Below are positions 3,943 through 38,464 of a stretch of DNA of 64,000 nt, piece by piece. Position 1 is the stretch's first letter. Each line of letters starts with the position of its first letter. This stretch comes from Chitinophaga pinensis (GTDB lineage Bacteria; Bacteroidota; Bacteroidia; B-17B0; Aurantibacillaceae): assembly GCA_945860225.1 (NCBI GenBank), contig CAMAPT010000018.1:1-64000 (forward strand), given 5' to 3'. The notes under the pieces were generated by a model, which ran no database searches, was not told where the DNA came from, and was given only the letters and a program-made list of their open reading frames with translations. The position numbers were made by a program, and so were the translations under genes.

Positions 3943-4008
3943 TATGAAATAGCCATGTGCTGCGCGCACAAACACAAATGAAGATACATGGCGTATACCA
4001 TATGACAA
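3943..4008 (+). repeat. Leader repeat copy A (type 1) upstream of thyA
   Basis: A 66-bp unit beginning TATGAAATAGCCATGTGC and ending ATACCATATGACAA. It shares about 90% identity with copy D, and the similarity continues through the following ~22 bp to the thyA start codon. It contains the inverted repeat GCCATGT...ACATGGC, the small hairpin GTGC-TGCGC-GCAC, and ATGG...CCAT at the 3' end. A promoter-like TACTTTTA (3914-3921, one mismatch to TAnnTTTG) lies just upstream, so the repeat is probably transcribed as part of the thyA leader. Confidence 0.85.
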
Positions 4009-4032
4009 CTAAAAAGCAATGAAAATCTACAT

Positions 4033-4827
4033 ATGAAACAATATCACGATTTAATGAATCACGTTTTACAAAATGGCGTGAAAAAAGAAGATAGAACAGG
4101 GACAGGTACGATCAGTGTTTTTGGATATCAGATGCGTTACAATTTAGCTGACGGATTTCCTTTGTTGACCACCAAAAAATTACATACTAAATCTATTATA
4201 CACGAATTATTGTGGTTTTTAAAAGGAGATACTAATATCAAGTATTTAAAAGAACATGGTGTTAATATTTGGGACGAATGGGCAGATGAAAACGGGGACT
4301 TAGGACCAGTTTATGGCTACCAATGGAGAAATTGGCCTACACCAAATGGAGAACACATTGATCAAATTTCTCAAGTAGTAGAAATGATAAAAAAGAATCC
4401 GGATTCTAGAAGATTAATTGTAAGCGCATGGAATGTGGCCGACATTAATCAAATGAAATTACCGCCTTGTCATGCTTTTTTTCAATTTTATGTTGCTGAT
4501 AGCAAATTAAGTTGCCAATTATACCAAAGGAGTGCAGATATTTTCCTTGGTGTTCCGTTTAACATAGCCTCTTATGCTTTATTAACGATGATGATAGCAC
4601 AGGTGTGCGGGTTGAAAGTAGGTGATTTTGTTCATACTTTAGGAGATGCTCACTTATACTCTAATCATATCGAACAGGCTAAGTTACAATTAACTAGAGA
4701 TTTACGTTCTTTGCCGACAATGAAAATAAATCCGAAAGTAACTTCTATATTTGATTTCAAATTCGAGGATTTTTCTTTAGAAAATTATAACCCACATCCT
4801 CATATTAAAGCAGAAGTAGCAGTATAA
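4033..4827 (+). CDS. thyA: Thymidylate synthase
   Basis: Converts dUMP to dTMP using methylene-tetrahydrofolate as carbon donor and reductant. At 264 aa it has the same length as E. coli ThyA. The catalytic Cys is C146 in [10 protein letters not shown], the phosphate-binding Arg residues are in DSRRLIV, and the dUMP-binding segment [20 protein letters not shown] follows. The ATG lies exactly one repeat period (89 bp) after the start of leader repeat A, and the sequence around it (ATATGAAA) matches the start of the repeat. No folA lies next to it. Confidence 0.97.
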
Positions 4828-4863
4828 AATGACAATATTTTTTTTCAGTATTTAGAATACAAT

Positions 4864-4871
4864 TAACTTTG
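4864..4871 (+). promoter_or_regulatory. -7 element of the frr promoter
   Basis: TAACTTTG matches TAnnTTTG and lies 15 bp before the frr ATG. TTTTC about 22 bp upstream is a poor -33 element. Confidence 0.5.
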
Positions 4872-4885
4872 CATAAATTAGAATT

Positions 4886-5446
4886 ATGAATGATATAAAA
4901 TCAATATTAGAACAAGCAAGAATACAAATGGAGAAAACAATTTCTCATTTGGAAACTGAGTTAGCAAAAATAAGAGCAGGAAAAGCAAATCCGGCCATGT
5001 TGGATAGTGTGCATGTTGATTATTATGGTGCTCGGACTATTTTGAGCAATGTAGCTAGCGTAAATACCCAAGATTCAAGAACTATTTTGATTCAGCCTTG
5101 GGAAAAATCAATGTTAACACCTATAGAAAAAGCCATTCAGGCAGCAAATTTGGGATTCAATCCTCAAAATGATGGCGCATTAATTCGCATTATTGTTCCA
5201 CCTTTAACAGAAGAACGACGTAAAGATTTAGTTAAAACCTCTAAATCATGTGGTGAAGATGCTAAAGTAGGGTTGAGAACAATTCGTAAAGATTCAATTG
5301 ATAAAATTAAAGCCTTACAAAAAGCTGGATTACCTGAAGATGAGGCAAAAAGTGGTGAAGCAAAAATGCAAATTTTAGTGGATGAATTTTCAGTAAAATG
5401 TGAAAAACACTTAGAACAAAAAGAAAAAGAAATTTTGACTGTATAA
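4886..5446 (+). CDS. frr: Ribosome recycling factor
   Basis: Works with EF-G to split post-termination 70S complexes. At 186 aa it has the standard family length. The three-helix-bundle part carries the family landmarks LAKIRAGKANPAMLD and RTILIQPWEKSMLTPIEKAI, then LTEERRKDLVK and a C-terminal helix ending in a Lys/Glu-rich segment. It has its own TAnnTTTG-type element upstream and ends before a very strong terminator shared with glmS. pyrH, its frequent partner, is not adjacent. Confidence 0.97.
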   Translation: MNDIKSILEQARIQMEKTISHLETELAKIRAGKANPAMLDSVHVDYYGARTILSNVASVNTQDSRTILIQPWEKSMLTPIEKAIQAANLGFNPQNDGALIRIIVPPLTEERRKDLVKTSKSCGEDAKVGLRTIRKDSIDKIKALQKAGLPEDEAKSGEAKMQILVDEFSVKCEKHLEQKEKEILTV

Positions 5447-5486
5447 CTTTTTGTTTTTGAAATTTATTCGATTTAAAAAAATAATT

Positions 5487-5530
5487 AAAAACTCAAAACC
5501 TCGATAGAAATATCGAGGTTTTGAGTTTTT
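5487..5530. terminator. Shared bidirectional terminator between frr and glmS
   Basis: A perfect 20-bp stem (5487-5506 with 5511-5530) capped by a GAAA tetraloop with an A/T tract on each side. It serves the convergent frr (+) and glmS (-). Confidence 0.88.
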
Positions 5531-5563
5531 ATAAATATATGTTAACTGTCTTTTTTATGTTTT

Positions 5564-7411
5564 TTATTCAACAGTAACGCTTTTGGCTAGATTTCTCGGT
5601 TGATCTACATTGCAACCTCTCATGACAGCAATGTGGTATGACAATAATTGTAAAGGAACAACGGAAAGCAAAGGCACCAATGACTCATCTGTTTCAGGAA
5701 TTTCAATAGTATAATCTGCCATAGATTTTACATCTTGGTCTCCCGAGGTAACAACGGCTATTATTTGACCTTTTCGAGCTTTTACCTCTTGAATGTTACT
5801 AACTACTTTTTCATAATTAGCGCCTTTAGTTGCAATAACAAAAACAGGCATAGCCTCGTCAATTAAAGCTATTGGACCATGTTTCATTTCGGCAGCAGGA
5901 TAGCCTTCTGCATGAATATATGAAATTTCTTTTAATTTAAGAGCTCCTTCAAGTGCAACTGGAAAAGAATATCCTCGCCCTAAATATAATGCATTAGAGG
6001 CGTCTTTGTATTTTGCAGCAATTTTTTTGATCGACTCATTTAATGCCAATACTTTTTCTACTTGACTTGGTATGGTTTCAATTTCATAAAGTAATTGTCT
6101 ATAACGACTTTCGCCCATGCTTCCTTTTAATTTTGCCACATGTAAAGCCATTAAAGTTAAAACAGTTACTTGAGCAGTAAAGGCTTTGGTAGATGCTACA
6201 CCTATTTCAGGCCCTGCATGAGTATAAGATCCGGCATGAGTTGCTCTTGCTATAGAAGAACCAACTACATTACATACTCCAAAAATAATAGCGCCTTTTG
6301 TTTTAGCTAGTTCAATGGCAGCTAAGGTGTCAGCTGTTTCTCCGCTTTGAGAAATAGCTATAACGATGTCGTCCGGATAAATAATAGGATTTCTATATCT
6401 AAATTCAGAGGCGTATTCTACTTCAACCGGAACACGAGCATATTCTTCAAATAAGTATTCTGCAACCATACCTGCATGCCATGAAGTACCACATGCTATT
6501 ATGATTATACGTTTTGCATTAATAAATTTAGTTTCGTATTCTTCAATTCCTCCCATTTTCAAATGACCTGTTTCAGAATTTAATCTTCCTCTCATACTAT
6601 CAAAAATAGAACGAGGTTGTTCATAAATTTCTTTCAACATAAAATGGTCATAACCACCTTTTTCAATCGCTTCTAATTCTAATTCTAATTCCTGAACATA
6701 GGGTGTTATTTCTTTATCACGGATTGTTCGTATTTTCAGGTCTTCTCCTCTTTTAATTATTGCTATATGTTCATCTTCAATGTAAACAACGTTTTTTGTG
6801 TATTCTACAATAGGAGATGCATCTGAAGCAATGAAAAATTCATCTTTTCCCACTCCAATAACCATTGGACTTCCTTTTTTTGCAGCGATCAGGGTATCTG
6901 GGTCATTTTTATCAAGTACAACAATAGCATACGCTCCATTTACTTGTTTTAAGGCATCCATTACCGCATACCCTAATTTCATTCCTTTTTCATGACGACG
7001 TATTTCTTCAATTAAGTGAATTAAAACTTCTGTATCTGTTTGAGAAACAAATACATGGCCTCTTTTTTGCAATCCTTCCTTAATAGAAGCGTAATTCTCT
7101 ATGATACCATTATGAATAATAACCAAATCTTTCGTTTGAGAATAATGAGGATGAGAATTGACATCACTTGGTTCTCCATGAGTTGCCCAACGAGTATGTC
7201 CAATACCTATATTTCCTGATTTATCTTTATCTAAACTGAAATCTAGTAAATCAGAAACTTTTCCTTTTTTCTTGTAAACATTTAATTTTCCTTCGGAAGA
7301 AATCATCGCAACCCCCGCACTGTCATATCCTCGGTATTCTAATCTTTGTAATCCCTTAATTAAAACCGGAAACGCGTCGCGATGACCAATATATCCTACA
7401 ATTCCACACAT
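5564..7411 (-). CDS. glmS: Glutamine--fructose-6-phosphate aminotransferase (isomerizing)
   Basis: Makes glucosamine-6-phosphate from fructose-6-phosphate and glutamine, the first step toward UDP-GlcNAc for peptidoglycan and polysaccharide. The N-terminal class II glutamine amidotransferase starts with the nucleophile Cys2 (MCGIVGYIG). It also has RGYDSAG, HTRWATHG and HNGIIENY. Two SIS isomerase domains follow (ACGTSWHAG, SQSGETADTLAA, LGRGYSFPVALEGALKLKE), and the end is NLAKSVTVE. At 615 aa it is full length. No glmS ribozyme is expected in this phylum, and none is visible in the short upstream region. Confidence 0.97.
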   Translation of the reverse strand: MCGIVGYIGHRDAFPVLIKGLQRLEYRGYDSAGVAMISSEGKLNVYKKKGKVSDLLDFSLDKDKSGNIGIGHTRWATHGEPSDVNSHPHYSQTKDLVIIHNGIIENYASIKEGLQKRGHVFVSQTDTEVLIHLIEEIRRHEKGMKLGYAVMDALKQVNGAYAIVVLDKNDPDTLIAAKKGSPMVIGVGKDEFFIASDASPIVEYTKNVVYIEDEHIAIIKRGEDLKIRTIRDKEITPYVQELELELEAIEKGGYDHFMLKEIYEQPRSIFDSMRGRLNSETGHLKMGGIEEYETKFINAKRIIIIACGTSWHAGMVAEYLFEEYARVPVEVEYASEFRYRNPIIYPDDIVIAISQSGETADTLAAIELAKTKGAIIFGVCNVVGSSIARATHAGSYTHAGPEIGVASTKAFTAQVTVLTLMALHVAKLKGSMGESRYRQLLYEIETIPSQVEKVLALNESIKKIAAKYKDASNALYLGRGYSFPVALEGALKLKEISYIHAEGYPAAEMKHGPIALIDEAMPVFVIATKGANYEKVVSNIQEVKARKGQIIAVVTSGDQDVKSMADYTIEIPETDESLVPLLSVVPLQLLSYHIAVMRGCNVDQPRNLAKSVTVE

Positions 7412-7491
7412 AATAATTCAATATAAAAAACTAGGCTAATATAACGCTTTTTTATTGAAAATGAGTGGTTAAATAGGTCTTAAATCAGGAT

Positions 7492-8400
7492 TTAACTCAG
7501 TGAAAATGATTTTAAAGCTTCGGAAAGAGTAGGGTATTGAAACACAAAATTGGAATTAAGTAATTTTTGATCACTAATTCGAGAGCCCTTGAGCAGTATG
7601 TTGGCCATTTCTCCAAATATTAAATGAAGCATAAATTCCGGAACACTAGGCATAAAAAATGGTTTTGATAAACTTTCTGCTAATTTTTCAGAAAATTCTC
7701 TATTAGTTACATGGTCTGGAGCAACAGCATTGTATAATCCTGATAATTTAGGATTAAACAGTGCTTGATGAAAAATGGACACCAAATCGTCTAAATGTAT
7801 CCAAGGCATGTATTGTAAACCGCTGCCCGTAGGAGATCCCAAACCTAATTTGAAAATTGGTAATAGTTTAGCTAAGGCTCCTCCTTTATAGCTCAATACG
7901 ATGCCTATTCTTAAAATACATTTTTTTTGAGTTAAATGCTCTATCTCTTCATAGGATTTCTCCCAATGTAAGCAACTGTATGTTAAAAAATCATCATTTC
8001 CCAAATCTGTTTCTGAAAATATTTTGTTGGAGGTAATCATACCATATATCCCAATAGCACTAGCACCAACAAAAGATTTGAGTTGTATTTGTTTTTTTTT
8101 AACTACACTCGTAATGAGTGCCATACTATTTACTCGCGAATCAATAATTTCTTTTTTACGTGCCTCTGTCCAACGAGAATCGGCTATTCCTGCTCCTGCT
8201 AAATGAATAATATGTTCAACATTGTCAAATGCTGATTCGTCAATCTTTTGAGATTTAACGTCCCAAAAAAAAGATTTAATTTTTGATAAACTTTTTGGAT
8301 TCCTAGATAATATCCGGACTTCATGTCCCTCTGAGATCAAACGATTACTCAACGCTTTTCCGACTAAACCTGTTCCGCCTGTGATTAAAATAATTGCCAT
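7492..8400 (-). CDS. TIGR01777-family NAD(P)-binding epimerase-like protein
   Basis: An atypical short-chain dehydrogenase of the YfcH/SulA-like TIGR01777 family. The N-terminal dinucleotide motif is ITGGTGLVGKAL, followed by LAGAGI, ASAIGIYG and a PWIHLDDLV segment. The C-terminal DUF1731-like part has AVAPDHVTNREFSEKLA. At 302 aa it is typical. The physiological substrate of this family is not known. It is divergent from the ferredoxin gene at 8453, 52 bp away. Confidence 0.9.
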   Translation of the reverse strand: MAIILITGGTGLVGKALSNRLISEGHEVRILSRNPKSLSKIKSFFWDVKSQKIDESAFDNVEHIIHLAGAGIADSRWTEARKKEIIDSRVNSMALITSVVKKKQIQLKSFVGASAIGIYGMITSNKIFSETDLGNDDFLTYSCLHWEKSYEEIEHLTQKKCILRIGIVLSYKGGALAKLLPIFKLGLGSPTGSGLQYMPWIHLDDLVSIFHQALFNPKLSGLYNAVAPDHVTNREFSEKLAESLSKPFFMPSVPEFMLHLIFGEMANILLKGSRISDQKLLNSNFVFQYPTLSEALKSFSLS

Positions 8401-8423
8401 ACCATTAAGTTACAAATTAGATG

Positions 8424-8431
8424 TAGATTTG
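8424..8431 (+). promoter_or_regulatory. -7 element upstream of the ferredoxin gene
   Basis: TAGATTTG fits TAnnTTTG. Its position supports the ATG at 8453 rather than the farther upstream ATG at 8381, which overlaps the divergent gene. Confidence 0.45.
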
Positions 8432-8452
8432 TTCAATGATAAATGTTTCTAT

Positions 8453-8767
8453 ATGACACCTATTTTCGACATACATATATTTGTTTGCACTAATCAACGC
8501 ACAGGAACAGAACGTTTAAGTTGTGGAGAATCTCATGGATTAGAATTAGTCGCAGAATTTAAAAAATTGGTTAAAGATTTAAATATTGGGTTGAAAATTC
8601 GTGCAAATAAGAGTGGGTGTTTGGGAATTTGTGATTTTGGACCTACGGTTGCTATTTATCCGGAAGGTGTTTTTTATGTTGGTGTAAAAAAACAAGATGT
8701 TAAAGAAATTATAGATTCTCATATTTTAAATAAAACACCTGTTGAACGATTATTATTTCAAAAATGA
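8453..8767 (+). CDS. Thioredoxin-like [2Fe-2S] ferredoxin
   Basis: A 104-aa protein resembling Shethna-type/NuoE-like thioredoxin-fold ferredoxins. It has cysteines in FVCTNQR, LSCGES and the pair SGCLGIC, then the typical GPTVAIYPEGVFYVGV strand. It is presumably an electron carrier; the partner is unknown. I chose the ATG at 8453 because it starts just before the first beta strand (TPIFDIHIFVCT), whereas the longer frame overlaps the divergent gene. It overlaps the next ORF by 4 bp (ATGA), indicating translational coupling. Confidence 0.85.
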   Translation: MTPIFDIHIFVCTNQRTGTERLSCGESHGLELVAEFKKLVKDLNIGLKIRANKSGCLGICDFGPTVAIYPEGVFYVGVKKQDVKEIIDSHILNKTPVERLLFQK

Positions 8768-9108
8768 AGTTAGATAATTTTCATTATCTCGAAAAGCCGG
8801 ATTTATTTGAAAATTTTAAAATTCAAATTACGAAAGATTTTGAATTGTGCGGTTTTTTGGAATATGCTCCGAAATTAAGAACAAATGATTTAAATCACGT
8901 TTATGAGGAAATATTGAAGTCTGTTCATCAGTTGGGAAAAAGAAGTTCATCAAATTTGATGAATTTACTGTATAGAATTGATTTATCAGAACTTCAAATT
9001 AAGCAAATGAATCAAACTGAACCAGAAAAATCATTTGAAGCAATCATAACGATAGCTATTATTAAAAGAATTTTACAGAAAGTTGTATTTAAACATTTGT
9101 ATTCTTAA
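8764..9108 (+). CDS. Hypothetical protein coupled to the ferredoxin
   Basis: I do not recognise this 114-aa soluble protein. It has no signal peptide or membrane segment. It is acidic/basic mixed and mostly predicted helical, with one Cys near residue 29. Its start overlaps the ferredoxin stop (ATGA), so the two are almost certainly made together and this may be a partner or maturation factor. It is convergent with the minus-strand gene at 9112, with 3 bp between the stops and no terminator. Confidence 0.75.
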   Translation: MKLDNFHYLEKPDLFENFKIQITKDFELCGFLEYAPKLRTNDLNHVYEEILKSVHQLGKRSSSNLMNLLYRIDLSELQIKQMNQTEPEKSFEAIITIAIIKRILQKVVFKHLYS

Positions 9109-9111
9109 CGA

Positions 9112-9855
9112 TTATAGGAATGAAGGATTATCCCATTTTGTGTCATTTAATCCTTTTCTGAGACTAACAATATAGTAAGTGAAAATAGCAGACAAAAAAA
9201 CAATGCACCAAAAAAAGTAAGCCATTCTAATCATTGAAAAATAATCTATATTAGGCTTTGTTGTAATAAAATTAGTTGGAGTGATAATGGTGAGTATGGC
9301 AGATATTACTAAAATTACCCCAAAAAGTATTTCTACATTTCTATAAGGTAAGGCGAACCATTTTTTGTAATTTGAATATTCATTGCCCCATTGATTAATG
9401 AAATAATATTCTCCATCGCCAATATCTGCAAATAAAGCATGCTGCATTTTCGGGAATTTCGTTTTAAAACTAGAAGCATCAGAAACTATTTTGAAAACGA
9501 TTGGTTTGTTGGTTTCGATTTCAAAAGCACTACATTTAATTTTAACATCATAAGGTAGTTCTGCTTTGTGAAATTTTGATTCTAAAAAACGTAAGTTATA
9601 TTTAATACAAACAAACCGAATATCTTCAATAGAAAATATTCGGTTTAAGTCTAATGTTTTGGAAAGAGTACTGGCCGTCGATATGTTGTGGTTATTTAAA
9701 TAAATTGGATAGTAATCATCTTCTTTGGCATTACTACCTTGTAAAATAGAATAAGCTTCTCTTAACAAATGTGATTGATGTAACTCATTGTTTTTTTCTT
9801 TTTGAAATTGTATTTCATTCAAGATGTTCATATTCTTTGTGCTTTTTGAAATCAA
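9112..9855 (-). CDS. Hypothetical membrane-anchored protein
   Basis: Not recognised. 247 aa: a soluble N-terminal ~170 residues, including a stretch reading HALFADIGDGEYYFINQWGN, followed by two membrane segments (about residues 173-190 and 208-227) and a short C-terminal tail ending in WDNPSFL. The ATG codon at 9831 gives MNILNEI and is an equally possible start. It lies about 60 bp downstream of the metallo-beta-lactamase/rhodanese gene on the same strand and may be co-transcribed with it. No catalytic motif is visible. Confidence 0.75.
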   Translation of the reverse strand: MISKSTKNMNILNEIQFQKEKNNELHQSHLLREAYSILQGSNAKEDDYYPIYLNNHNISTASTLSKTLDLNRIFSIEDIRFVCIKYNLRFLESKFHKAELPYDVKIKCSAFEIETNKPIVFKIVSDASSFKTKFPKMQHALFADIGDGEYYFINQWGNEYSNYKKWFALPYRNVEILFGVILVISAILTIITPTNFITTKPNIDYFSMIRMAYFFWCIVFLSAIFTYYIVSLRKGLNDTKWDNPSFL

Positions 9856-9918
9856 AGTGCATACAAATCTTTATTAAAAACAATTATAATTTAAATAGGT
9901 TTAATAATCGTTTACTTT

Positions 9919-11334
9919 TTATAAACCTTGTAATTTACTTTGACATACAAAATCTGTTTTGGGAATTTCTGTTTCAGAGATCGCTTTAAAACCACCTTCA
10001 ATTTCTTTGAAACTATGAATTCCTCGCGCTTTTAAAATACTTGCAGCTATCATGCTTCTGTACCCACCGGCACAATGAAGATAAAAAGGTTTTTCTTTAT
10101 TTAGTCCGATAAACCAATTATTAATCTGATCTAAAGGTTTACTAAAAGCATTGTCAATGTGTTCTGCCCTATATTCATTTTCTTTTCTTACATCAATCAC
10201 GAAATCTTTTTTCACATCTAATTCTGCAGCAAATTGAGTTGCTAGGATTCTATTTACTGTATCGAACTCATTTTCGGATTTTTTCCAATTTTCAAAACTT
10301 CCCGCTAAGTAACCAATAACATTATCGAACCCAACTCTACTTAAACGCATGATAGTTTCTTTTTCTTTTCCTAATTCTGTAATTAATAAAATAGGTTGTT
10401 TCACATCTTTAATAAGGGATCCAACCCAAGGGGCAAAATCTCCATTTATACCTATGTTGATTGAACGAGGAACAAATCCCTTTGCAAAATCTGAAGCGCC
10501 TCTCGTATCCAATAATATAGCATCTGTAATTTCAGCAACTGTTTTAAATTCCTCAATAGTTAATGGTTTCATAGCATTATGTAGAATTGTATCAAAACTT
10601 TCATAACCTTTTTTATTCATGGCCACATTCATTCCAAAATAACTAGGAGGCGGCAAGAGCCCGTCTGTAACAGATTTTATAAATAATTCTTTGTTTGGTT
10701 GGTTTAATGCATAATTTACCTTTTTTTGATTCCCCAATGTATCAACCGTTTCTTTCATCATGTTTTTACCACATGCACTTCCTGCACCATGAGCAGGATA
10801 TACAATAATATCGTCAGATAAAGGCATTATTTTGCTGGTTAATGATTCATATAGCAAACCCGCTAGTTCATCTTGTGTCATGGAAGCTGATTTTTGCGCT
10901 AAATCGGGTCGTCCTACATCTCCTAAAAACAAGGTATCTCCGCTAAATAAAGCGTAGTCTTTACCGGTTTCATCTTTTAATAAAAAACAAGAGCTTTCTA
11001 ATGTATGTCCCGGTGTATGTAATACCTTAATTGTAATGTTTCCTAATTTAAATTCTTCGCCGTCTTCTGCAATGATTGCATTAAATTCGGGGTTGGCTGT
11101 CGGTCCGTAAACAATAGGAGCATTAGTACTTTTACTTAAATCTAAATGTCCGGAAACAAAGTCAGCATGAAAATGCGTTTCGAATATATATTTAATGTTT
11201 ACACAATCTTTTTGTGCCCTCTCTAAATAAGGTTGGATTTCACGAAGCGGATCTATAATTGCAGCTTCTCCGCTAGAAACAATGTAATAAGCTCCCTGTG
11301 CTAAGCATCCTGTATAAATTTGTTCAATTTTCAT
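9919..11334 (-). CDS. Metallo-beta-lactamase / double-rhodanese fusion (persulfide dioxygenase-like)
   Basis: A 471-aa fusion that probably acts in sulfide or persulfide oxidation. The N-terminal domain is an ETHE1/BlsB-type metallohydrolase with ETHFHADFVSGH, HTPGHT, FSGDTLFLGDVGRPDL and VYPAHGAGS. Two rhodanese domains follow. The first (about 265-350) lacks a cysteine at the active-site loop, where it reads ITELGKEKE. The second has the complete loop HCAGGYRS. This is the common CstB-like arrangement in Bacteroidota. The gene is preceded by repeat B in its leader. The family uses a non-haem iron and glutathione or low-molecular-weight persulfides; the actual substrate here is inferred. Confidence 0.88.
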   Translation of the reverse strand: MKIEQIYTGCLAQGAYYIVSSGEAAIIDPLREIQPYLERAQKDCVNIKYIFETHFHADFVSGHLDLSKSTNAPIVYGPTANPEFNAIIAEDGEEFKLGNITIKVLHTPGHTLESSCFLLKDETGKDYALFSGDTLFLGDVGRPDLAQKSASMTQDELAGLLYESLTSKIMPLSDDIIVYPAHGAGSACGKNMMKETVDTLGNQKKVNYALNQPNKELFIKSVTDGLLPPPSYFGMNVAMNKKGYESFDTILHNAMKPLTIEEFKTVAEITDAILLDTRGASDFAKGFVPRSINIGINGDFAPWVGSLIKDVKQPILLITELGKEKETIMRLSRVGFDNVIGYLAGSFENWKKSENEFDTVNRILATQFAAELDVKKDFVIDVRKENEYRAEHIDNAFSKPLDQINNWFIGLNKEKPFYLHCAGGYRSMIAASILKARGIHSFKEIEGGFKAISETEIPKTDFVCQSKLQGL

Positions 11335-11357
11335 TTCTTTGAGTTTTTGTCTTTTTA

Positions 11358-11376
11358 CTTTATATATGGTAAAACC
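11358..11376 (-). repeat. Partial leader-repeat unit next to the MBL/rhodanese start
   Basis: Read on the minus strand, GGTTTTACCATATATAAAG followed by TAAAAAGACAAA matches the 3' third of the type 2 repeat unit (GGTTATACCATATGACAAATAAAAAACAAA). It lies between full copy B and the ATGAAA start, where a second tandem unit would be expected. Confidence 0.45.
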
Positions 11377-11397
11377 GATTTTGTCTTTGTTTTTTAA

Positions 11398-11462
11398 TTA
11401 CCAAATGGTATACTATGTTTAGTCATCTGTGTTTGTGTAGGTTACAACATGGCTATTTCATA
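11398..11462 (-). repeat. Leader repeat copy B (type 2) upstream of the MBL/rhodanese gene
   Basis: On the minus strand this reads TATGAAATAGCCATGTTG...ACACAAACACAGATGACTAAACATAGTATACCATTTGG. It matches copies C and F and has the same sense orientation relative to its gene as all other copies. The 5' hairpin and mini-ORF are altered (ATG TTG TAA), so this copy appears degraded in its middle. Confidence 0.78.
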
Positions 11463-11499
11463 ATATTATGCTGCTATTTAATATCTTATTTCATTTTAT

Positions 11500-11507
11500 C
11501 AAAATTA
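11500..11507 (-). promoter_or_regulatory. -7 element for the MBL/rhodanese gene
   Basis: On the minus strand TAATTTTG, an exact TAnnTTTG. It would place the transcription start near 11494, giving a ~160-nt leader that contains repeat B. No TTG is seen at the usual distance. Confidence 0.4.
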
Positions 11508-11718
11508 TGAAATATTCATTTACTTATTAGTTTATTTCAATTACTCGTCATTGATTGTTTAATTTAACATGGTTTGAAAAAACACTTTAATTTGTTATTT
11601 TCTTATTCAACGATATCAAATAAAAAATAGTTCTGATTTTTTACACATTCATTAAGAATAGTGATTGATTAAATAATTTCGAAACACAATTTGAGCTATA
11701 TTTTGTATTTTTACCTAC

Positions 11719-12294: not shown

Positions 12295-12302
12295 AACTAA
12301 AT

Positions 12303-13487: not shown

Positions 13488-13580
13488 AAGAAAGACATAT
13501 TTATAGCGTAAATATAACAAATACAAGACTTTTTTGGTAAGAAAAACGTTGGCATAAATAATTCATTATATTTATGTCGC

Positions 13581-26460: not shown

Positions 26461-26487
26461 AGTATGATAGATGGTTTAATAAGCCGA

Positions 26488-28126: not shown

Positions 28127-28134
28127 CAAAATTA
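28127..28134 (-). promoter_or_regulatory. -7 element of htrA
   Basis: TAATTTTG on the minus strand, about 50 bp before the ATG; no good -33 element is visible. Confidence 0.4.
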
Positions 28135-28229
28135 AATGAGAAGTTATGTTTGATATAGTCTTTTAACAATACTTAACGGCGGTTAATTTTATCTATCAGA
28201 TTAAAAAATGTGTTAAAACAAGATGACTT

Positions 28230-28255
28230 TTTTTACTCAAAACTTTGAGTAAAAA
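28230..28255. other. 12-bp inverted repeat in the htrA / 28304 divergent region
   Basis: TTTTTACTCAAA, spacer AC, then its perfect complement. It lies between divergent genes, so it is more likely an operator or leader hairpin than a terminator. Confidence 0.45.
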
Positions 28256-28303
28256 GTTGAAAACAGTTTAGAAAATATATGTAATTTTAATGACTAGCCG
28301 GTC

Positions 28304-28927: not shown

Positions 28928-28931
28928 CCTA

Positions 28932-29735: not shown

Positions 29736-29788
29736 ATTTTCAGACACATCATCGCATTTCAGTTTAACTATATTGTGTAATTCATTTT

Positions 29789-31195: not shown

Positions 31196-31252
31196 TTGGC
31201 AAAATTAAGTCTTAATGAAAATTATTTGCTGATATATATCACATTAAAAATT

Positions 31253-31265
31253 GATTGTAGCAATC
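31253..31265. promoter_or_regulatory. Small palindrome at about -41 of the universal stress protein gene
   Basis: GATTG-TAG-CAATC, a 5-bp inverted repeat centred 41 bp before the predicted start set by TAGTTTTG. The position suits an activator, but the sequence does not match the FNR box. Confidence 0.25.
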
Positions 31266-31286
31266 TGCATTTTAAGTTGCTAATTA

Positions 31287-31294
31287 TAGTTTTG
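31287..31294 (+). promoter_or_regulatory. -7 element of the universal stress protein gene
   Basis: TAGTTTTG, exact TAnnTTTG, 28 bp before the chosen ATG at 31322. It supports this start over the longer frame. Confidence 0.5.
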
Positions 31295-31321
31295 TCGAAA
31301 CTTGTTAAAGCTATGTGTTAT

Positions 31322-32176
31322 ATGAAAACACTATTAATTCCAATTGATTTTTCAGAAATATCCGACAATGCTTTATTATACGGGGTGAGATTGGCAAATG
31401 CGTTGTCGGCCAATATAATCCTATTACATGTAAACCCTTTGCCAGTTTATAATAGTGAATATAACACATTAACTTTTTCAATAATAGATGCGTTGGAAAC
31501 CAGTTTATTGCAATTAAAAGAAAAAGCAGAAAGATTAAAATCAACTCAATTTTTAAAAGGTTCTGTAACTTATTTTGTAGAGACAGGAGATTTAAAGTCA
31601 CATGTCATCCAGTATAACAAACAATATAACGTTGATTTAATTGTTATGGGAATTACGGAGCATGATACGAAGTTTACACAAACACTTTTCGGCAGTAATG
31701 CGGTTTCTCTATCAAAAGAGAGCAAAGTGCCTATATTGATAATTCCTAAAGGTTATACCTACAAAAACATTCAAACTATTGCGTATGCTTGTGAGTATGA
31801 TAGTAAATCTGTTTCTGGTAACTATCTGACAACTGTTAAACAGCTCTGTCATTTATTTGATGCAAACTTAAATATTCTTCATGTTATTCCTGAAAATCAT
31901 TTAATAAATGAAATAGAGGCGGAATTGGATTTACATATAGAAAAAACAATGGAGCAAACGCCTCATAAAACGTATATTTTACTAGAAGATAGTGCGAGTG
32001 AAGCAGTGATAGATTTTGTTCGTTCACACGATGTTGATATTATCTTATTACAGCCTAAACATCATTCTTATTGGCATCGTATTTTTCATACAAGCACTAC
32101 TAAAGAGGTTGCTTTTGAAAGTCCGGTTCCTATACTTTGTATGGAAGATGGGGCAAAATTATCTAATAGATGGTAA
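31322..32176 (+). CDS. Tandem universal stress protein (UspA family)
   Basis: 284 aa with two Usp domains (about 1-148 and 155-284). The first starts KTLLIPIDFSEISDNALLYGV and has the ATP-binding GITEH...FGSNAVSLSKESKVPILIIP. The second is more divergent, with no clear GxxG loop. Usp proteins respond to energy and oxygen limitation. The ATG at 31322 is chosen because the first beta strand starts there. It overlaps the start of the low-oxygen respiration module and is 3 bp from the DUF1003 gene. Confidence 0.9.
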   Translation: MKTLLIPIDFSEISDNALLYGVRLANALSANIILLHVNPLPVYNSEYNTLTFSIIDALETSLLQLKEKAERLKSTQFLKGSVTYFVETGDLKSHVIQYNKQYNVDLIVMGITEHDTKFTQTLFGSNAVSLSKESKVPILIIPKGYTYKNIQTIAYACEYDSKSVSGNYLTTVKQLCHLFDANLNILHVIPENHLINEIEAELDLHIEKTMEQTPHKTYILLEDSASEAVIDFVRSHDVDIILLQPKHHSYWHRIFHTSTTKEVAFESPVPILCMEDGAKLSNRW

Positions 32177-32179
32177 ATA

Positions 32180-32890
32180 ATGGAGGTTACGTGTTCTATT
32201 AGTCATCAAAAATATGATGCCTCTTTATGCCATCGGTTAGATACATTATCTGAACCTGTAAGAAATTTATTACTGATAGATTATCCTTATTTGCTTGATG
32301 ATAGCTTGGTGTCTCAAGATCAAATTATCATTTATCGAAAAAAATATCTTAATCAATTAATATTAAGTGAATACGGAGAAGTTGATGTGTTAGAAAAAAA
32401 AGTAGTGGATGCTATTGCAAAAAACGAAATTTTATCTGAAAACATCGAAACTGATTTAAATGAACATATAAGCTTTGGAGAAAAAATGGCCGATTATATA
32501 GCCTTATTTGGAGGCAGTTGGGGATTTATTATTTGGTTTTTTGTATTCATTTTTATTTGGATTTTAATCAATCTGATTGCTAATGCCCAATTAGTCTTTG
32601 ACCCATATCCGTTTATTTTATTGAACCTAATTTTATCATGTTTAGCATCTATTCAGGCCCCTATCATTATGATGAGTCAAAATAGGCAAGAACACAAAGA
32701 TAGGAGCCGTAATGTAAATGACTATAAAGTTAATTTGAAAGCAGAACTTGAAATTCAATTATTACATGAGAAAATAGATCATTTAATGGTTCATCAAAAC
32801 AAAAAACTTCTTGAAATACAACAGATACAAGTTGATTTGTTTGATGACATATTGAAACAAGTTTACTCGAAAAAACAAAATATACCATGA
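32180..32890 (+). CDS. DUF1003 membrane protein
   Basis: 236 aa. The N-terminal ~90 residues are soluble with a Cys in TCSISHQKYDASLCHRLD. Two TM segments follow (about 110-134 and 142-163: FGGSWGFIIWFFVFIFIWILIN and DPYPFILLNLILSCLASIQAPIIMMSQNRQ), the DUF1003 signature. A C-terminal coiled coil completes it. The family function is unknown. It lies 3 bp from the stress protein gene, so the two are co-transcribed. Confidence 0.9.
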   Translation: MEVTCSISHQKYDASLCHRLDTLSEPVRNLLLIDYPYLLDDSLVSQDQIIIYRKKYLNQLILSEYGEVDVLEKKVVDAIAKNEILSENIETDLNEHISFGEKMADYIALFGGSWGFIIWFFVFIFIWILINLIANAQLVFDPYPFILLNLILSCLASIQAPIIMMSQNRQEHKDRSRNVNDYKVNLKAELEIQLLHEKIDHLMVHQNKKLLEIQQIQVDLFDDILKQVYSKKQNIP

Positions 32891-32970
32891 TAAACCAATT
32901 GCTTTGTCATGGGTGAAACAATTGTATCATAAAATTAAACGCGAAGAATTATTGTTTGCCCATAAACCAT

Positions 32971-32984
32971 TTGACCTTAATCAT
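32971..32984 (+). promoter_or_regulatory. Weaker FNR-like half-site pair upstream of ccoI
   Basis: TTGAC-CTTA-ATCAT has the FNR consensus TTGAT-N4-ATCAA with one mismatch per half. It is centred at about -64 of the predicted ccoI start. Confidence 0.35.
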
Positions 32985-32992
32985 CTCTAAAC

Positions 32993-33006
32993 ATGATAAT
33001 TATCAT
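32993..33006 (+). promoter_or_regulatory. FNR/Crp-type box at about -42 of the ccoI promoter
   Basis: ATGAT-AATT-ATCAT carries the FNR core TGAT-N4-ATCA and is extended to a perfect 16-bp palindrome (32992-33007). Its centre is 42.5 bp before the start predicted from the adjacent -7 box, the classic class II activator position. The genes downstream are the cbb3 oxidase set, a typical FNR/FixK target. The regulator itself is not in the window. Confidence 0.6.
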
Positions 33007-33008
33007 GC

Positions 33009-33036
33009 TTGGAATTATTGTATAAAATTACGTTTG
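33009..33036 (+). promoter_or_regulatory. Promoter of the ccoI-ccoS-ccoNO operon
   Basis: TTG (33009-33011), 17 nt, TACGTTTG (33029-33036). Transcription would begin at or just after the GTG start (33041), implying a leaderless transcript or a later start. Confidence 0.55.
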
Positions 33037-33040
33037 CTAT

Positions 33041-35452
33041 GTGAAAGTAGCAGACATAAATAAGACTAAAATCACTTGCTATCACTGCGGTGAGTTTGTT
33101 AAAGATTCAGGATTTCAGATTGATTCGAAATCGTTTTGTTGTAGAGGTTGTCAAACCGTTTATGAAATTATCAATAAAAACGATTTATGTTCTTACTATA
33201 CTATTGAAAATTCACCGGGAATCAATCAAAAAAATACTGTTCGAAAAGGTAAGTTTGATTTTTTAGACGATCAACAAATCATAAAAAAGTTAACGCATTT
33301 TCAAGATGATTTTCAGCAACACGTTATTTTTTATTTGCCTCAAATGCATTGTAGTTCTTGCATTTGGATATTGGAGCACTTAAATAACATAAATGCGGGC
33401 ATTATCAAATCGCAGGTAAATTTTATTAAGAAAGAAGTAATAGTTATTTACGATTACCATAAAACATCTCTTAAAAAAGTAGCAGAAAACTTAACTATTA
33501 TTGGGTATGAGCCACATATTAGTTTAAATGATGTGCGAGCAGGAAAAATAAAGACATATGATACTAGTCAAATAGTAAAGCTCGGTATTGCCGGATTTTG
33601 TTTTGGTAATATTATGATGTTGAGCTTTCCTGATTATTTTTCGTTGGGTAATATCGAAGATGCTGCCTTGAAATATTGGTTTAATTATTTGAATTTAATT
33701 CTTTCTCTACCCGTTTTTTTTTATTCGGCATCTGATTTTTTTATTTCTGGTTTCAAAGGTATTCGTCAAAAATTTTTGAATATTGATGCTCCTATTGCAT
33801 TAGCTATTTTAATTACTTTTAGTAGAAGCGTTTACGAAATTATATCAGACACGGGATCTGGATATTTAGATTCTATGTCTGGTATCGTTTTTTTTATGTT
33901 AATTGGTCGATATTTTCAAAATAAGACCTATCAAACGATTTCATTTGACAGAGATTTTACATCTTATTTCCCTTTAGGAGTAGGCGTGGTAAATACTGAT
34001 GGTACTGAAAAACAAGTCTCTGTTTCAACCTTAAAAGTAGGCGATCGAATCAGAATACATAACGATGAAATTATACCTACTGATGCGATTTTGTTTTTTG
34101 GTAAAGCCACTATTGATTACAGTTTTGTAACGGGTGAATCTTTGCCCATAGAAAAATCAATTGGTGAAATTATTTATGCAGGGGGAAAGCAAACTTCTGG
34201 TGCGATAGAATTAGAAGTAGTAAAAGAAGTTTCTCAAAGTTATTTAACTCAATTATGGAACAATGACGCATTTGATGAAAAAAATGAAAACAAGCCTCGT
34301 TCTTTTATTCATCACGTAAGCCAATATTTTACATATATTTTATTCTCAATTGCTATTTCATCGGCTATTTATTGGATGGTTTATGATTCTTCAAAGGTTT
34401 GGAATACTGTTACTGCAGTATTAATTGTGGCTTGTCCTTGTGCTTTATTATTGAGCGCCACATTTACTAATGGTAATATGATTCGTATTTTAAATAAATA
34501 TCAATTATACATTAAAAACGCTTTTGTCATTGAACAATTATCTAGGATAGATACGATTGTTTTTGATAAAACAGGAACAATAACCGAACAAGGAAAAGCT
34601 GAAATCGTATTTCATGGAAACGATTTTTCTGCTGAAAAAGCTCAGTTAATTGGATCTTTAGCGAATCAATCCAATCACCCATTAAGTAAAAGTATTGCCT
34701 CCTTTTTACCATTTAGCAAAAGCTTACCTAATAAACATTATAAAGAAATAAAGGGATATGGAACAACCGCTACGATTAGTCAGCATCAGGTTAAAATGGG
34801 GTCGGCTGAATTTGTGCTACACAAAACGATTGAACATCACGGTTACGGTAGTAAAATATATGTGAGTATTGATGAAGAATTTGTAGGGTATTTTGCAGTC
34901 AAAAATGCCTATCGGAAAGGATTAGAAGATGTGATTAATTCCTTGAAATCAAAATTTGATTTAAAAATTTTATCAGGAGATAATTCATCAGAAGAGCCCT
35001 ATTTGAAATATATTTTTGGAGATAGTACAGAGCTTTTATTCAATCAAAAACCGGAAGATAAGTTGAACTATATCAAATCACTTCAGGATAAAAACAAGAA
35101 AGTATTGATGATAGGAGATGGCTTAAATGATGCAGGAGCATTAAAGCAGAGTGATGTGGGGATTGCAATCAGTGACGATACAAATAATTTCTCACCGGCT
35201 TGTGATGCTGTGTTATCAGGGCAATCATTTAAAATACTCAATGATTTAATTATGTATTGTAAAAATGAAAAAACTATCATTTATTCAAGTTTTGTATTAT
35301 CTATATTATATAATTTTATAGGTCTTTTTTATGCCGTTCAAGGCGACCTCAAGCCAGTAATCGCGGCTATATTAATGCCTTTAAGTTCTATTAGTATTGT
35401 TATACTAACAACTGGTTTAAGCTCTTTGTATGAGTTGATATTGAAAAAGTAA
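33041..35452 (+). CDS. ccoI: cbb3 oxidase-associated copper-exporting P-type ATPase (CcoI/FixI)
   Basis: Delivers copper across the inner membrane for assembly of the cbb3 CuB centre. 803 aa. An N-terminal Cys-rich domain (CYHCGEFV...SFCCRGCQTVYEII) and an HMA domain with MHCSSC precede eight TMs. Catalytic features are TGES, the metal-binding CPC in ACPCALLL, the phosphorylation site DKTGTIT, an ATP-binding domain with HPLSKSI, and GDGLNDAGAL. The GTG start lies only 5 bp after the -7 box. It is the first gene of the cco operon. Confidence 0.95.
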   Translation: MKVADINKTKITCYHCGEFVKDSGFQIDSKSFCCRGCQTVYEIINKNDLCSYYTIENSPGINQKNTVRKGKFDFLDDQQIIKKLTHFQDDFQQHVIFYLPQMHCSSCIWILEHLNNINAGIIKSQVNFIKKEVIVIYDYHKTSLKKVAENLTIIGYEPHISLNDVRAGKIKTYDTSQIVKLGIAGFCFGNIMMLSFPDYFSLGNIEDAALKYWFNYLNLILSLPVFFYSASDFFISGFKGIRQKFLNIDAPIALAILITFSRSVYEIISDTGSGYLDSMSGIVFFMLIGRYFQNKTYQTISFDRDFTSYFPLGVGVVNTDGTEKQVSVSTLKVGDRIRIHNDEIIPTDAILFFGKATIDYSFVTGESLPIEKSIGEIIYAGGKQTSGAIELEVVKEVSQSYLTQLWNNDAFDEKNENKPRSFIHHVSQYFTYILFSIAISSAIYWMVYDSSKVWNTVTAVLIVACPCALLLSATFTNGNMIRILNKYQLYIKNAFVIEQLSRIDTIVFDKTGTITEQGKAEIVFHGNDFSAEKAQLIGSLANQSNHPLSKSIASFLPFSKSLPNKHYKEIKGYGTTATISQHQVKMGSAEFVLHKTIEHHGYGSKIYVSIDEEFVGYFAVKNAYRKGLEDVINSLKSKFDLKILSGDNSSEEPYLKYIFGDSTELLFNQKPEDKLNYIKSLQDKNKKVLMIGDGLNDAGALKQSDVGIAISDDTNNFSPACDAVLSGQSFKILNDLIMYCKNEKTIIYSSFVLSILYNFIGLFYAVQGDLKPVIAAILMPLSSISIVILTTGLSSLYELILKK

Positions 35453-35530
35453 AAAGATGACAAAAGTCATTTTTTAGCTTGATTAATGTCAATAGACAAC
35501 TTTACCATAAAACTAATTTTGTTTTCGAAT

Positions 35531-35707
35531 ATGAGTGCCATTTTTATTATGATAGGAGCAAGTTTATTATTGGCTATAGGCTTTTTGGTAGCCTTTATAT
35601 GGTCTGTTAAAAATAATCAGTATGAGGATGATTATACACCGTCGGTGAGAATTTTATTTGACAATACAACCATTCAGGAAGAAAAAAATAAACACACAAA
35701 AGAATAA
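35531..35707 (+). CDS. ccoS: cbb3 oxidase assembly protein CcoS
   Basis: A small one-TM protein required for cofactor insertion into cbb3 oxidase. The ATG at 35531 gives a 58-aa product: MSAIFIMIGASLLLAIGFLVAFIWSVKNNQYEDDYTPSVRILFDN, with the family pattern of an N-terminal TM, then W-x-V-x-x-x-Q-[FY]-[DE]-D and RILFD. A start at 35486 would add 15 residues without family support. It is followed 29 bp later by ccoNO. Confidence 0.9.
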   Translation: MSAIFIMIGASLLLAIGFLVAFIWSVKNNQYEDDYTPSVRILFDNTTIQEEKNKHTKE

Positions 35708-35736
35708 GAAAATAACAATTACAAAAAACTGGTAAT

Positions 35737-37863
35737 ATGGAACTACAAAAATTTCAGTACGACAATAAGATTGTAAAAATGTTTGCCTATGCAACGATGC
35801 TTTGGGGTTTAGTTGGAATGCTTGTTGGAGTTATAGCTGCCATTCAGTTGTATCTGCCGGCAGCTAATATGTCTTTGCCCTACACGACTTTTGGTCGTCT
35901 TCGTCCGTTGCATACTAATGCTGTTATTTTTGCTTTTGTAGGTAATGGTATTTTTATGGGTGTTTATTACTCGTTACAGCGGTTATTAAAAGCACGCATG
36001 TTTAGTGACTTTTTGAGTAAAATTCATTTTTGGGGTTGGCAATTAATTATTGTATTAGCCGCGTTAACTTTAGTATTAGGAAAAACAACTGGGAAGGAAT
36101 ATGCTGAATTAGAATGGCCCATCGATATTTTAATCACACTGGTTTGGGTGGTATTTGGTTGGAATATGTTTGGAACAATTATTCGTCGTCGAGAACGTCA
36201 TTTGTATGTAGCTATTTGGTTTTACATAGCCACTTTTGTTACGGTTGCCATGTTGCATATAGTTAATTCAATTGAAATTCCGGTTTCTTTCTGGAAATCT
36301 TATTCATGGTATGCAGGGGTTCAGGATGCCCTAGTTCAATGGTGGTATGGTCATAATGCGGTAGCTTTTTTCTTAACTACTCCTTATTTAGGTTTAATGT
36401 ATTATTTCTTACCAAAAATTGCTCAGCGTCCGGTGTATTCATACCGATTATCTATCATCCATTTCTGGGCATTAATTTTCTTATACATTTGGGCAGGGCC
36501 TCACCATTTGTTATATACTTCAGTTCCTGATTGGGCGCAATCATTAGGAGTTGTATTTTCAGTAATGTTAATAGCACCATCTTGGGGAGGTATGATTAAT
36601 GGATTATTGACACTTCGTGGCGCGTGGGATAGAGTGCGTGACAATGTTGGATTGAAGTTTTTGGTGGTTGCTGTTACCGCTTATGGGATGGCCACCTTTG
36701 AGGGACCGATGTTATCACTAAAAAATGTCAATGCTATTGCTCATTTCACAGATTGGATTGTGGCTCATGTTCACGTTGGAGCTTTGGGTTGGAATGGATT
36801 TATGACCTTTGGTATATTATATTGGTTAATTCCAAGATTATTTCAAACGAAATTGTATTCTGAAAAATTAGCGAACGTTCATTTTTGGATTGGTACTTTA
36901 GGTATTGTATTATATGCAGTGCCGATGTATTGGGCAGGTTTCATGCAAAGTTCTATGTGGAAAGATTTTACACCAGAAGGCCAATTGAAATGGCAGTTCA
37001 TGGATACAGTCACAAAAATGATTCCGTTTTATATTGCACGTTCTATTGGTGGTACATTGTTTTTGGCAGGTGCCGTTATCATGACTTATAACTTGATTAA
37101 AACAATTAAGGTTGGTAATTTTCTTGAAATAGAAGAAGATCAGGCTCCGGCATTAACCGGTGAATACCATTCACATTCTCATGATCATTGGCATCGTTGG
37201 ATTGAACGTAAACCGATTCAATTAATGATAATTAGTTTAGTTGTGGTAGCTATTGGTGGGTTAATAGAATTTGTGCCGGTGTTTTTGGTTAAATCAAATA
37301 TTCCAACCATTGCAAGTGTAAAACCATATACACCTCTCGAATTACAGGGAAGAGATATTTACATAAGAGAAGGCTGTTATACATGTCATTCGCAAATGGT
37401 TCGTCCTTTTAGAAGTGAAACGGCACGTTATGGAGAATATTCTAAAGCAGGTGAATTTGTTTACGATCATCCGTTTCAGTGGGGAAGCAAACGAACAGGT
37501 CCGGATTTGGCTCGTGTAGGTGGAAAATATCCTGACAGTTGGCATTATAATCATATGCTCGATCCAACCTCGATGTCTCCTGGTTCTGTTATGCCTCAGT
37601 ATCCTTGGTTATTAGAAGATCAGTTAGATGCTAACTCAACCATTGCAAAAATAAAAGCCATGAAACGTTTGGGCGTACCTTATCCTGATAGTTATGAAAC
37701 TAGTGCCATTTCTGATATGGAAAAGCAAGCCACAGAGATTACAGCTAATTTGAAAAAAGATGGCATAGAAACTTTACCAGATAGAGAAATTGTGGCCTTA
37801 ATATCTTATTTACAGCGTTTAGGTAAGGATATTAAAGCAGAGGGATTAAAGGCAAAAAAATAA
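35737..37863 (+). CDS. ccoNO: Fused cbb3 cytochrome oxidase subunit I/II (CcoNO)
   Basis: The catalytic core of the high-affinity terminal oxidase. The CcoN part (about 1-470) has ~12 TMs with the haem and CuB histidines in RLRPLHTNAVIFAFVGN, WWYGHNAVAFFLTTPYLG, GPHHLLYTSVPDW and TDWIVAHVHVGALGWNGF. After a His-rich linker (HSHSHDHWHRW) comes CcoO, with a TM and one c-type haem site, CYTCH (about 547-551), in GCYTCHSQMVRPFRSE, and the axial Met downstream. The fusion of N and O is characteristic of Bacteroidota. 708 aa. Confidence 0.97.
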   Translation: MELQKFQYDNKIVKMFAYATMLWGLVGMLVGVIAAIQLYLPAANMSLPYTTFGRLRPLHTNAVIFAFVGNGIFMGVYYSLQRLLKARMFSDFLSKIHFWGWQLIIVLAALTLVLGKTTGKEYAELEWPIDILITLVWVVFGWNMFGTIIRRRERHLYVAIWFYIATFVTVAMLHIVNSIEIPVSFWKSYSWYAGVQDALVQWWYGHNAVAFFLTTPYLGLMYYFLPKIAQRPVYSYRLSIIHFWALIFLYIWAGPHHLLYTSVPDWAQSLGVVFSVMLIAPSWGGMINGLLTLRGAWDRVRDNVGLKFLVVAVTAYGMATFEGPMLSLKNVNAIAHFTDWIVAHVHVGALGWNGFMTFGILYWLIPRLFQTKLYSEKLANVHFWIGTLGIVLYAVPMYWAGFMQSSMWKDFTPEGQLKWQFMDTVTKMIPFYIARSIGGTLFLAGAVIMTYNLIKTIKVGNFLEIEEDQAPALTGEYHSHSHDHWHRWIERKPIQLMIISLVVVAIGGLIEFVPVFLVKSNIPTIASVKPYTPLELQGRDIYIREGCYTCHSQMVRPFRSETARYGEYSKAGEFVYDHPFQWGSKRTGPDLARVGGKYPDSWHYNHMLDPTSMSPGSVMPQYPWLLEDQLDANSTIAKIKAMKRLGVPYPDSYETSAISDMEKQATEITANLKKDGIETLPDREIVALISYLQRLGKDIKAEGLKAKK

Positions 37864-37882
37864 ATTATCAATATTATAGACT

Positions 37883-37948
37883 TAGGAAATAGCCAAGTTG
37901 CGACTAGCGCAAACACAAATGACTAAACATGGTTATATCATATGATAA
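37883..37948 (+). repeat. Leader repeat copy C (type 2), first of two upstream of ccoQ
   Basis: A 66-bp unit beginning TAGGAAATAGCCAAG and ending with ATCATATGATAA. It keeps CAAACACAAATGACTAAACATGG but has lost the first ATG and the mini-ORF frame. The next unit (D) starts 89 bp later. Confidence 0.8.
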
Positions 37949-37971
37949 GTAAAAAACAAATTATTAAGACG

Positions 37972-38037
37972 TATGAAATAGCCATGTGCTGCACCTACAA
38001 ACACAAATGAAGATACATGGCGTATAACATATGACAA
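37972..38037 (+). repeat. Leader repeat copy D (type 1), adjacent to ccoQ
   Basis: Nearly identical to copy A upstream of thyA, including the following ACTAAAAA(A/G)CAAT...AAAATCTACATATGAAA up to the ccoQ start. That extended match over ~95 bp between two unrelated genes shows recent copying or strong selection. Confidence 0.85.
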
Positions 38038-38060
38038 CTAAAAAACAATAAAATCTACAT

Positions 38061-38234
38061 ATGAAATTCAAAAATTATTTAGAAAGTATTACAGGAATTG
38101 GTATATATCCGCTTATATCTTTAATCATCTTCATTGGTTTTTTTGGTTTAGTTACTCTGTATGTTTTAAAAGGTAATAAAAAACATTTTGACAAATTGAG
38201 CCATCTTCCAATTAGTGAAAAAGAACCTATTTAA
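38061..38234 (+). CDS. ccoQ: cbb3 oxidase subunit CcoQ (FixQ)
   Basis: A 57-aa single-TM protein (MKFKNYLESITGIGIYPLISL..., TM about 14-35) that stabilises the cbb3 complex. It is recognised by its size, its one TM followed by a short charged cytoplasmic tail, and its position between ccoNO and ccoP. It was found by reading the gap. The start codon sits where the next leader-repeat unit would begin. Confidence 0.88.
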   Translation: MKFKNYLESITGIGIYPLISLIIFIGFFGLVTLYVLKGNKKHFDKLSHLPISEKEPI

Positions 38235-38242
38235 ACTCTACT

Positions 38243-38292
38243 TATGAATAGGCATGTTTAACCTTCAAATGATTAAACTATGCTTTTCATCT
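38243..38292 (+). repeat. Degenerate leader repeat copy G in the ccoQ-ccoP gap
   Basis: TATGAATAGGCATGTTTAACC...CAAATGATTAAACTATGCTTTTCAT aligns with the type 2 unit (TATGAAATAGCCATGTG...CAAATGACTAAACATGG...CATATG) with several changes. It lies 70 bp before copy E. Confidence 0.5.
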
Positions 38293-38312
38293 ACACTAAA
38301 AATGCATCTACA

Positions 38313-38378
38313 TGTTAAATAGCCATATGCTGCACGAACAAACACAAATGAAGATACATGGCGTATACCATATGACAA
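38313..38378 (+). repeat. Leader repeat copy E (type 1) in the ccoQ-ccoP gap
   Basis: Starts TGTTAAATAGCCATATGCTGC and ends ATACCATATGACAA. The 3' half (CAAACACAAATGAAGATACATGGCGTATACC) is identical to copy A. Unit F starts 87 bp later. Confidence 0.82.
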
Positions 38379-38399
38379 AAAAAACAAATAATTTAAACA

Positions 38400-38464
38400 T
38401 ATGAAATAGCCATGTGCTTTACGCACAAAACCAAATGACTAAACATGGTTATACCATATGACAA
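38400..38464 (+). repeat. Leader repeat copy F (type 2), adjacent to ccoP
   Basis: Starts TATGAAATAGCCATGTGCTTTACGCAC and ends ATACCATATGACAA. The ccoP start TATGAAT follows 88 bp after the unit start. GTGC-TTTAC-GCAC keeps the small hairpin seen in copy A with a different loop. Confidence 0.83.

Follow-up and report, generated by a model that had tools for sequence, protein, structure and literature searches.

An 89-bp repeat ahead of unrelated start codons in Bacteroidota, a candidate non-autonomous mobile element with guide-paired insertion at TATGAA

Why do genes as different as thyA and ccoP carry nearly the same leader, in places several times over, directly ahead of their start codons? 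The question is raised by the window, the 64,000-nucleotide stretch of DNA analysed here, in which a preliminary description had located six copies (A to F) and some remnants of a repeat, read as either a transcribed regulatory element or a mobile mini-element. Reading of the sequence and a profile search confirmed copies A to F in place and orientation. Remnant G and a second remnant were recognised by reading as degraded copies, and nhmmer listed neither. The features are as follows.

3943..4031, + strand: copy A, full 89-bp element before thyA (reading, covariance model)
3999..4004, + strand: guide-like CATATG within copy A, the complement of the CA/TATG junction at 4030-4035
4032..4037, + strand: target TATGAA of copy A; the ATG at 4033 is the thyA start codon
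11376..11462, - strand: copy B, degraded, upstream of the MBL/rhodanese gene (reading, covariance model)
11335..11374, - strand: second remnant, a degraded copy that runs up to the MBL/rhodanese ATG (11334) (reading)
37883..37971, + strand: copy C, first unit of the tandem pair before 'ccoQ', with left end TAGGAA (reading, covariance model)
37972..38059, + strand: copy D, second unit of the pair, adjoining the TATGAA of 'ccoQ' (ATG 38061) (reading, covariance model)
38243..38312, + strand: remnant G, a degraded unit that opens the ccoP array (reading)
38313..38399, + strand: copy E, in tandem with F (reading, covariance model)
38400..38487, + strand: copy F, adjoining the TATGAA of ccoP (ATG 38489) (reading, covariance model)

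The window thus holds two tandem arrays, C/D and G/E/F. Copy B has no adjoining start codon; the remnant behind it does adjoin one. Pfam supported the names thyA, MBL/rhodanese and ccoP, whereas the 57-aa 'ccoQ' had no Pfam match and owes its name to place and length only. A sigma-70-type scan of 37700-38600 gave 4 sites against a shuffle mean of 5.1, that is, no excess.

The repeat family is real, and its copies lie far above chance. In the window's own genome (G000), copy A had 46 BLAST matches, and a covariance model trained on 43 copies found 53; some copies there were identical over 66 bp, and the left-end 15-mer occurred 34 times, against 0 for the reversed control. The same model gave 42 matches in G005 and 45 in G014. 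Across the order, 48 of 87 genomes matched at E<=1e-5, the number of matches ranging from 1 to 49 per genome, and at this threshold 14 of the 20 genomes of the own genus carried a match. Wherever a contig stretch with the pattern was named (23 cases), it came from a Bacteroidota MAG; copy A had no match among phage and plasmid records, and the exact element pattern had none among viral contigs. No Rfam family covered the copies at gathering score: the sole two gathering-score matches in the window were tRNAs elsewhere, and sub-threshold matches of 37600-38700 all fell far under the cut-off.

The unit is about 89 bp long, which is also the period of the tandem copies, and runs from TATGAAATAGCC to CTACA in the layout TATGAAATAGCCATGT-(variable hairpin)-CACAAATGA…CCATATGACAACTAAAAA…CTACA. 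It is usually followed by a host TATGAA, the ATG of which is most often the start codon. The 66 bp first assigned to the unit stopped short of its A-rich tail of ~23 bases and of the TATGAA on the right, and the two subtypes first distinguished have become at least three, the third carrying TTTTCCGAAACAC...AAACTGGCTAAACC. Further variants were seen among the copies. At L016:1397-1500, L021:1397-1500 and L367, part of the palindrome was swapped for a different repeat, near TCCCGATAGCTATCGGGA; several G014 covariance-model matches also measured ~104 bp like this version, which may have multiplied. Those at L047, L051, L039, L225 and L215 had either an insert like CCTTCGATAAACTCAGGACAAGA ahead of ATGACAA or a longer loop with a CACAATTGCGAAGCACTCAACGAAACAA-like stretch. 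In most copies (e.g. 3943-3952), the left end reads ATG AAA TAG, a two-codon frame Met-Lys-stop, into which the gene's former leader may now lead.

We then read the insertion junctions of 119 clusters in five genomes, of which 3 at contig ends were dropped and 116 were readable. With a script that favoured TATGAA close to the expected end, the junction was TATGAA in 87 of 116 clusters, CATGAA in 7, TATGAC and TGTGAA in 3 each, and other hexamers in 16, whereas TATGAA stood at only ~10% of 263 unoccupied background starts. An ORF of at least 60 aa began at the junction (ATG, or GTG/TTG) in 85 of the 116 clusters, and in 23 of 38 in the own genome. The other 31 comprised 2 clusters with an ORF of 40-59 aa and 29 with neither, one of the latter (G015:C24) being also cut by a contig end. 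The claim that copies occur only in front of start codons therefore fits the window but does not extend to the genomes.

Even so, the copies were non-random in both position and direction. Those on the start side point toward the gene, in a systematic look that covered the right side, and many non-start copies share the same TATGAA junction. The motif accounts for the orientation but only partly for the position at start codons, because an excess at starts remains: insertions at TATGAA lay at ORF starts in 74 of 87 cases, compared with 65 of 139 free non-coding TATGAA sites (odds ratio 6.5, p=5e-9; genes were called by a simple ORF rule, and the figures are approximate). On the same stretches, unoccupied TATGAA was found at 65 starts, at 74 other non-coding places and at 470 places in coding sequence. 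The residual excess must reflect tolerance, selection or a real preference for starts.

Comparison of orthologous sites supported the mobile half of the preliminary description, through both empty sites and unit-wise differences in copy number. Precise insertion is seen at G005:C43, where two tandem units stand ahead of ATGAAAAACTATTTC and the same place has a single TATGAA in G015 (…AAAAA|TATGAAAAAC) and TATGGA in G019 (…AATTA|TATGGAAAAT); a second element on the query used for this comparison had no orthologous flank, and one further comparison yielded no readable empty site. The window's 'ccoQ' site, with copies C and D, is likewise element-free in G015, reading …AGACC|TATGAAATTT. Element-free orthologous starts were also found for three more G005 clusters (in G000 or G015) and, in G005, for one G014 cluster, with junctions not resolved to the base. 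Copy number is polymorphic as well: at two other sites, G005 and G019 differ by 2 vs 1 and 4 vs 2 units between flanks 93-97% identical.

The left TATGAA of the unit is mainly element-borne and not a target duplication, because among 24 copies whose target hexamer is not TATGAA the left end differed from the target in 19; in the other 5 the two were equal, as duplication would give. We compared the gene-proximal with the most distal unit in 33 arrays: the proximal one led by more than 3 bits in 19 and trailed by that margin in 7, and in the other 7 it did neither. New units therefore seem to arrive mostly at the TATGAA of the gene itself.

How might such a short unit find its target? Each unit contains one palindrome, imperfect and ~60 nt long, closed by the unit's left end together with CATA from the internal CATATG. 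Its stem is kept: in a hand parse that left 4 rows unparsed and at least 4 visibly misparsed, 328 of 392 cells were paired, against a maximum of 325 in 2000 shuffles. RNAalifold did not find the palindrome; the sole consensus structure that it returned was the pairing of the internal CATATG with the complementary CA/TATG junction. In 168 of 175 copies, between 28 and 36 nt separate the first base of the guide hexamer from the target, and in 136 of these 168 the foot hexamer is CATATG.

Guide and junction covary. Changed guides occur with correspondingly changed junctions, namely CATAAG with CTTATG, CATATA with TATATG, CATATT with AATATG, CACATG with CATGTG, and CATGTG with CACATG, although other pairs do not match (e.g. 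CATATG with CTTATG or CACATG). Of 189 copies, 14 were excluded because the junction or the guide could not be read, and 2 as duplicates; in the resulting 173, Watson-Crick pairs filled 967 of 1038 cells, against a mean of 926 and a maximum of 938 in 5000 shuffles, which ignore kinship. Guide positions 5-6 pair with bases of the element itself. Counting each of the 40 distinct guide/junction types a single time gave 188 of 240, where shuffles reached 184 at most. Restricted to the four target positions, the count was 660 of 692 (shuffle maximum 657), but with the 40 types counted once each the observed 131 of 160 was reached by 13 of 5000 shuffles. A G at guide position 4 coincided with a target C in 3 of 7 copies, against 3 of 161 otherwise (p=0.0009). 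IS608 follows a comparable logic: its guide, immediately 5' of the hairpin foot, base-pairs with the target and so sets the place of insertion (PMC5934647), which lies 3' of a fixed tetranucleotide read by the guide (PMC5934647; PMC6006769).

Because guide and target covary and IS608 follows the same logic, we infer single-strand HUH-type transposition of a one-hairpin element, with the enzyme acting in trans and insertions tolerated by way of the A-rich leader. In our view, the repeat is probably a mobile DNA element of ~89 bp that is non-autonomous, with guide-paired insertion at TATGAA and single-strand movement of the HUH type. On the strand opposite the downstream gene, the order would be target TTCATA, a linker of ~27 nt, the guide-like CATATG, the imperfect palindrome and a terminal TTCATA. 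Insertion would take place directly 3' of TTCATA, which on the gene strand means before TATGAA, and would not normally duplicate the target; the target would probably be read through its pairing with CATATG at the palindrome foot, as in IS200/IS605 guides. An excision circle would carry the junction CTATTTCATA/TGTAG. Since its own end is also TATGAA, the element could insert beside itself and so form arrays with the ~89-bp period; since the ATG stays intact and the new leader is A-rich, insertions could survive even before presumably essential genes. That it belongs to a new class of minimal DNA-guided elements specialised on start codons, in which one hairpin serves as both ends, the guide reads TATG, the A-rich tail is a replacement leader that lets the host survive insertions ahead of essential genes, and the enzyme is no recognised Y1 transposase, is a tentative idea that we think possible but doubtful.

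We found no described family matching the repeat in the open-access literature. The nearest known kinds are the ends of IS200/IS605 elements together with PATEs, which are palindrome-associated derivatives of IS200/IS605, and REP/RAYT repeats; TAACTGA repeats are near in position only. Like the ends of IS608 and ISDra2, the element has a hairpin and a foot-adjacent guide that pairs with the cleavage or target site, it inserts 3' of a fixed short target that is mostly unduplicated, and its end resembles that target. Unlike them, it has one hairpin per unit and not a subterminal hairpin at each end, its target lies at start codons, and no tnpA/tnpB, autonomous relative or, in the window's genome, Y1 gene was detected. 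It shares with REP/BIME sequences and their RAYTs the small size, high copy number, palindrome, non-autonomous state and occurrence as singles and clusters, but differs in its head-to-tail arrays, its fixed target on the start-codon side, and in having no foot tag or linked RAYT; REP tags at the hairpin foot read GTAG or CGTC in the part of PMC3733652 available. In hairpin number, foot tag and linked transposase, the element departs from these families. TAACTGA repeats, as far as the available text of PMC4679880 describes them, are heptamer arrays in Beggiatoaceae, Cyanobacteria and some Bacteroidetes; they too are direct repeats closely upstream of the start codons of unrelated genes, but nothing in that text corresponds to the 89-bp unit, the palindrome or the TATGAA target.

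Searches for the enzyme bear on whether the repeat is of the REP type and was mobilised by a RAYT still present in relatives, a reading that we think unlikely. Its size, hairpin and foot guide are REP-like, judging from the accessible portion of PMC6006769, and a close RAYT occurs in G005, G008, G011 and G014, all of which bear elements. However, this RAYT is flanked by different palindromes and had no match in G000, G015 or G019, 8 of 12 element genomes of the genus had no RAYT match of that strength, and neither GTAG nor CGTC stands directly at the hairpin foot, GTAG lying at the far end of the linker. In the window's genome, which is 99.97% complete, neither PF01797, nor NF047646, nor a RAYT profile made from three relatives' RAYTs found a Y1/REP transposase at E<=0.001. 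In transposase loci spanning about 1.5 kb per side or less, no credible element was found beside 30 Y1 (PF01797) genes (best E 0.11) or RAYT-profile genes (best E 2.6), and none at E 0.1 in 30 further loci; we accordingly rejected IS200-type and RAYT genes as carriers in the loci examined. Of the 25 Y1 loci whose ORF could be read, 5 had TTCAT no more than 250 bp upstream. At L272-L275, RAYT genes are flanked by palindromes of their own, of the CACCTGTCAGGTTTTAAAACCTGACAGGTG and AAGACCCGAAAGGTTT...AAACCTTTCGGGTCT types. The association of the element with NF047646 across the order was weak, the profile having no match in 9 of 48 element-bearing genomes and 16 of 39 others (counted by eye). A search by end patterns yielded no autonomous version, as matches outside the BLAST-listed copies were degraded or variant short copies. 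The enzyme may have been lost, be absent from the assembly, reside on another replicon or be of another kind.

The repeat could instead be a portable leader RNA or regulatory element, spread and kept for regulating the genes behind it, with mobility secondary. The start excess and the kept stem fit this, as do the RNA folds of two of five copies, which clearly beat shuffles (z -3.55, -2.83), and six orthologous starts filled in two genomes, not counting one G005/G019 case that was inherited. Yet the other three sense folds gave z -1.04, -1.53 and -0.07, 29 of the 116 clusters lack an ORF of at least 40 aa, four of the six paired starts hold different subtypes by eye, and the compared loci had been fetched for holding elements. 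The downstream genes speak against a regulon, because no common function links the 15 proteins classified among roughly 85; represented are, among others, thymidylate synthase, glyceraldehyde-3-phosphate dehydrogenase, glycine cleavage P protein, ferrochelatase, FolB, an amino-acid-kinase-family protein and a pseudouridine synthase. We judge regulation as the primary role improbable. The orthologous starts of ccoP, usp-like, rhodanese and pseudouridine-synthase genes are filled in two genomes as if hit repeatedly, with different subtypes where compared by eye. Shared occupied starts were set aside as proof of selection, given these differing subtypes and the choice of loci. As a further route, insertion could proceed by way of an RNA intermediate or of a different enzyme that relies on base pairing (e.g. 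a reverse transcriptase), which would explain the sense orientation at transcribed starts, where copies point toward the gene and exceed what the motif predicts; but sense orientation already follows from the motif, and many non-start copies have the same TATGAA junction, so that we consider this route very improbable.

For the mobile, guide-paired element that we favour, the leader it brings along is plausibly workable, if not ideal. The last 30 nt before the start contained 57% A in element leaders and 43% in background leaders (85 vs 263 starts), and folding energies were about equal. To our knowledge, Bacteroidota lack Shine-Dalgarno sequences. Position -3 was C in 93% and A in 4% of element leaders, compared with A in 52% of the background, and A at -3 favours initiation in Flavobacterium johnsoniae according to the available part of PMC6847099; judged from sequence, C at -3 runs against the context favoured in Bacteroidota.

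If this reading is correct, the repeat would be a mobile element for which the start-codon region, found by base pairing, serves as a safe harbour, and in each genome dozens of genes would have had their leaders rewritten by it. It would represent a very small natural system of guided insertion, and, with one leader placed before many genes and absent in sister species, a natural experiment on start-codon choice in Bacteroidota.
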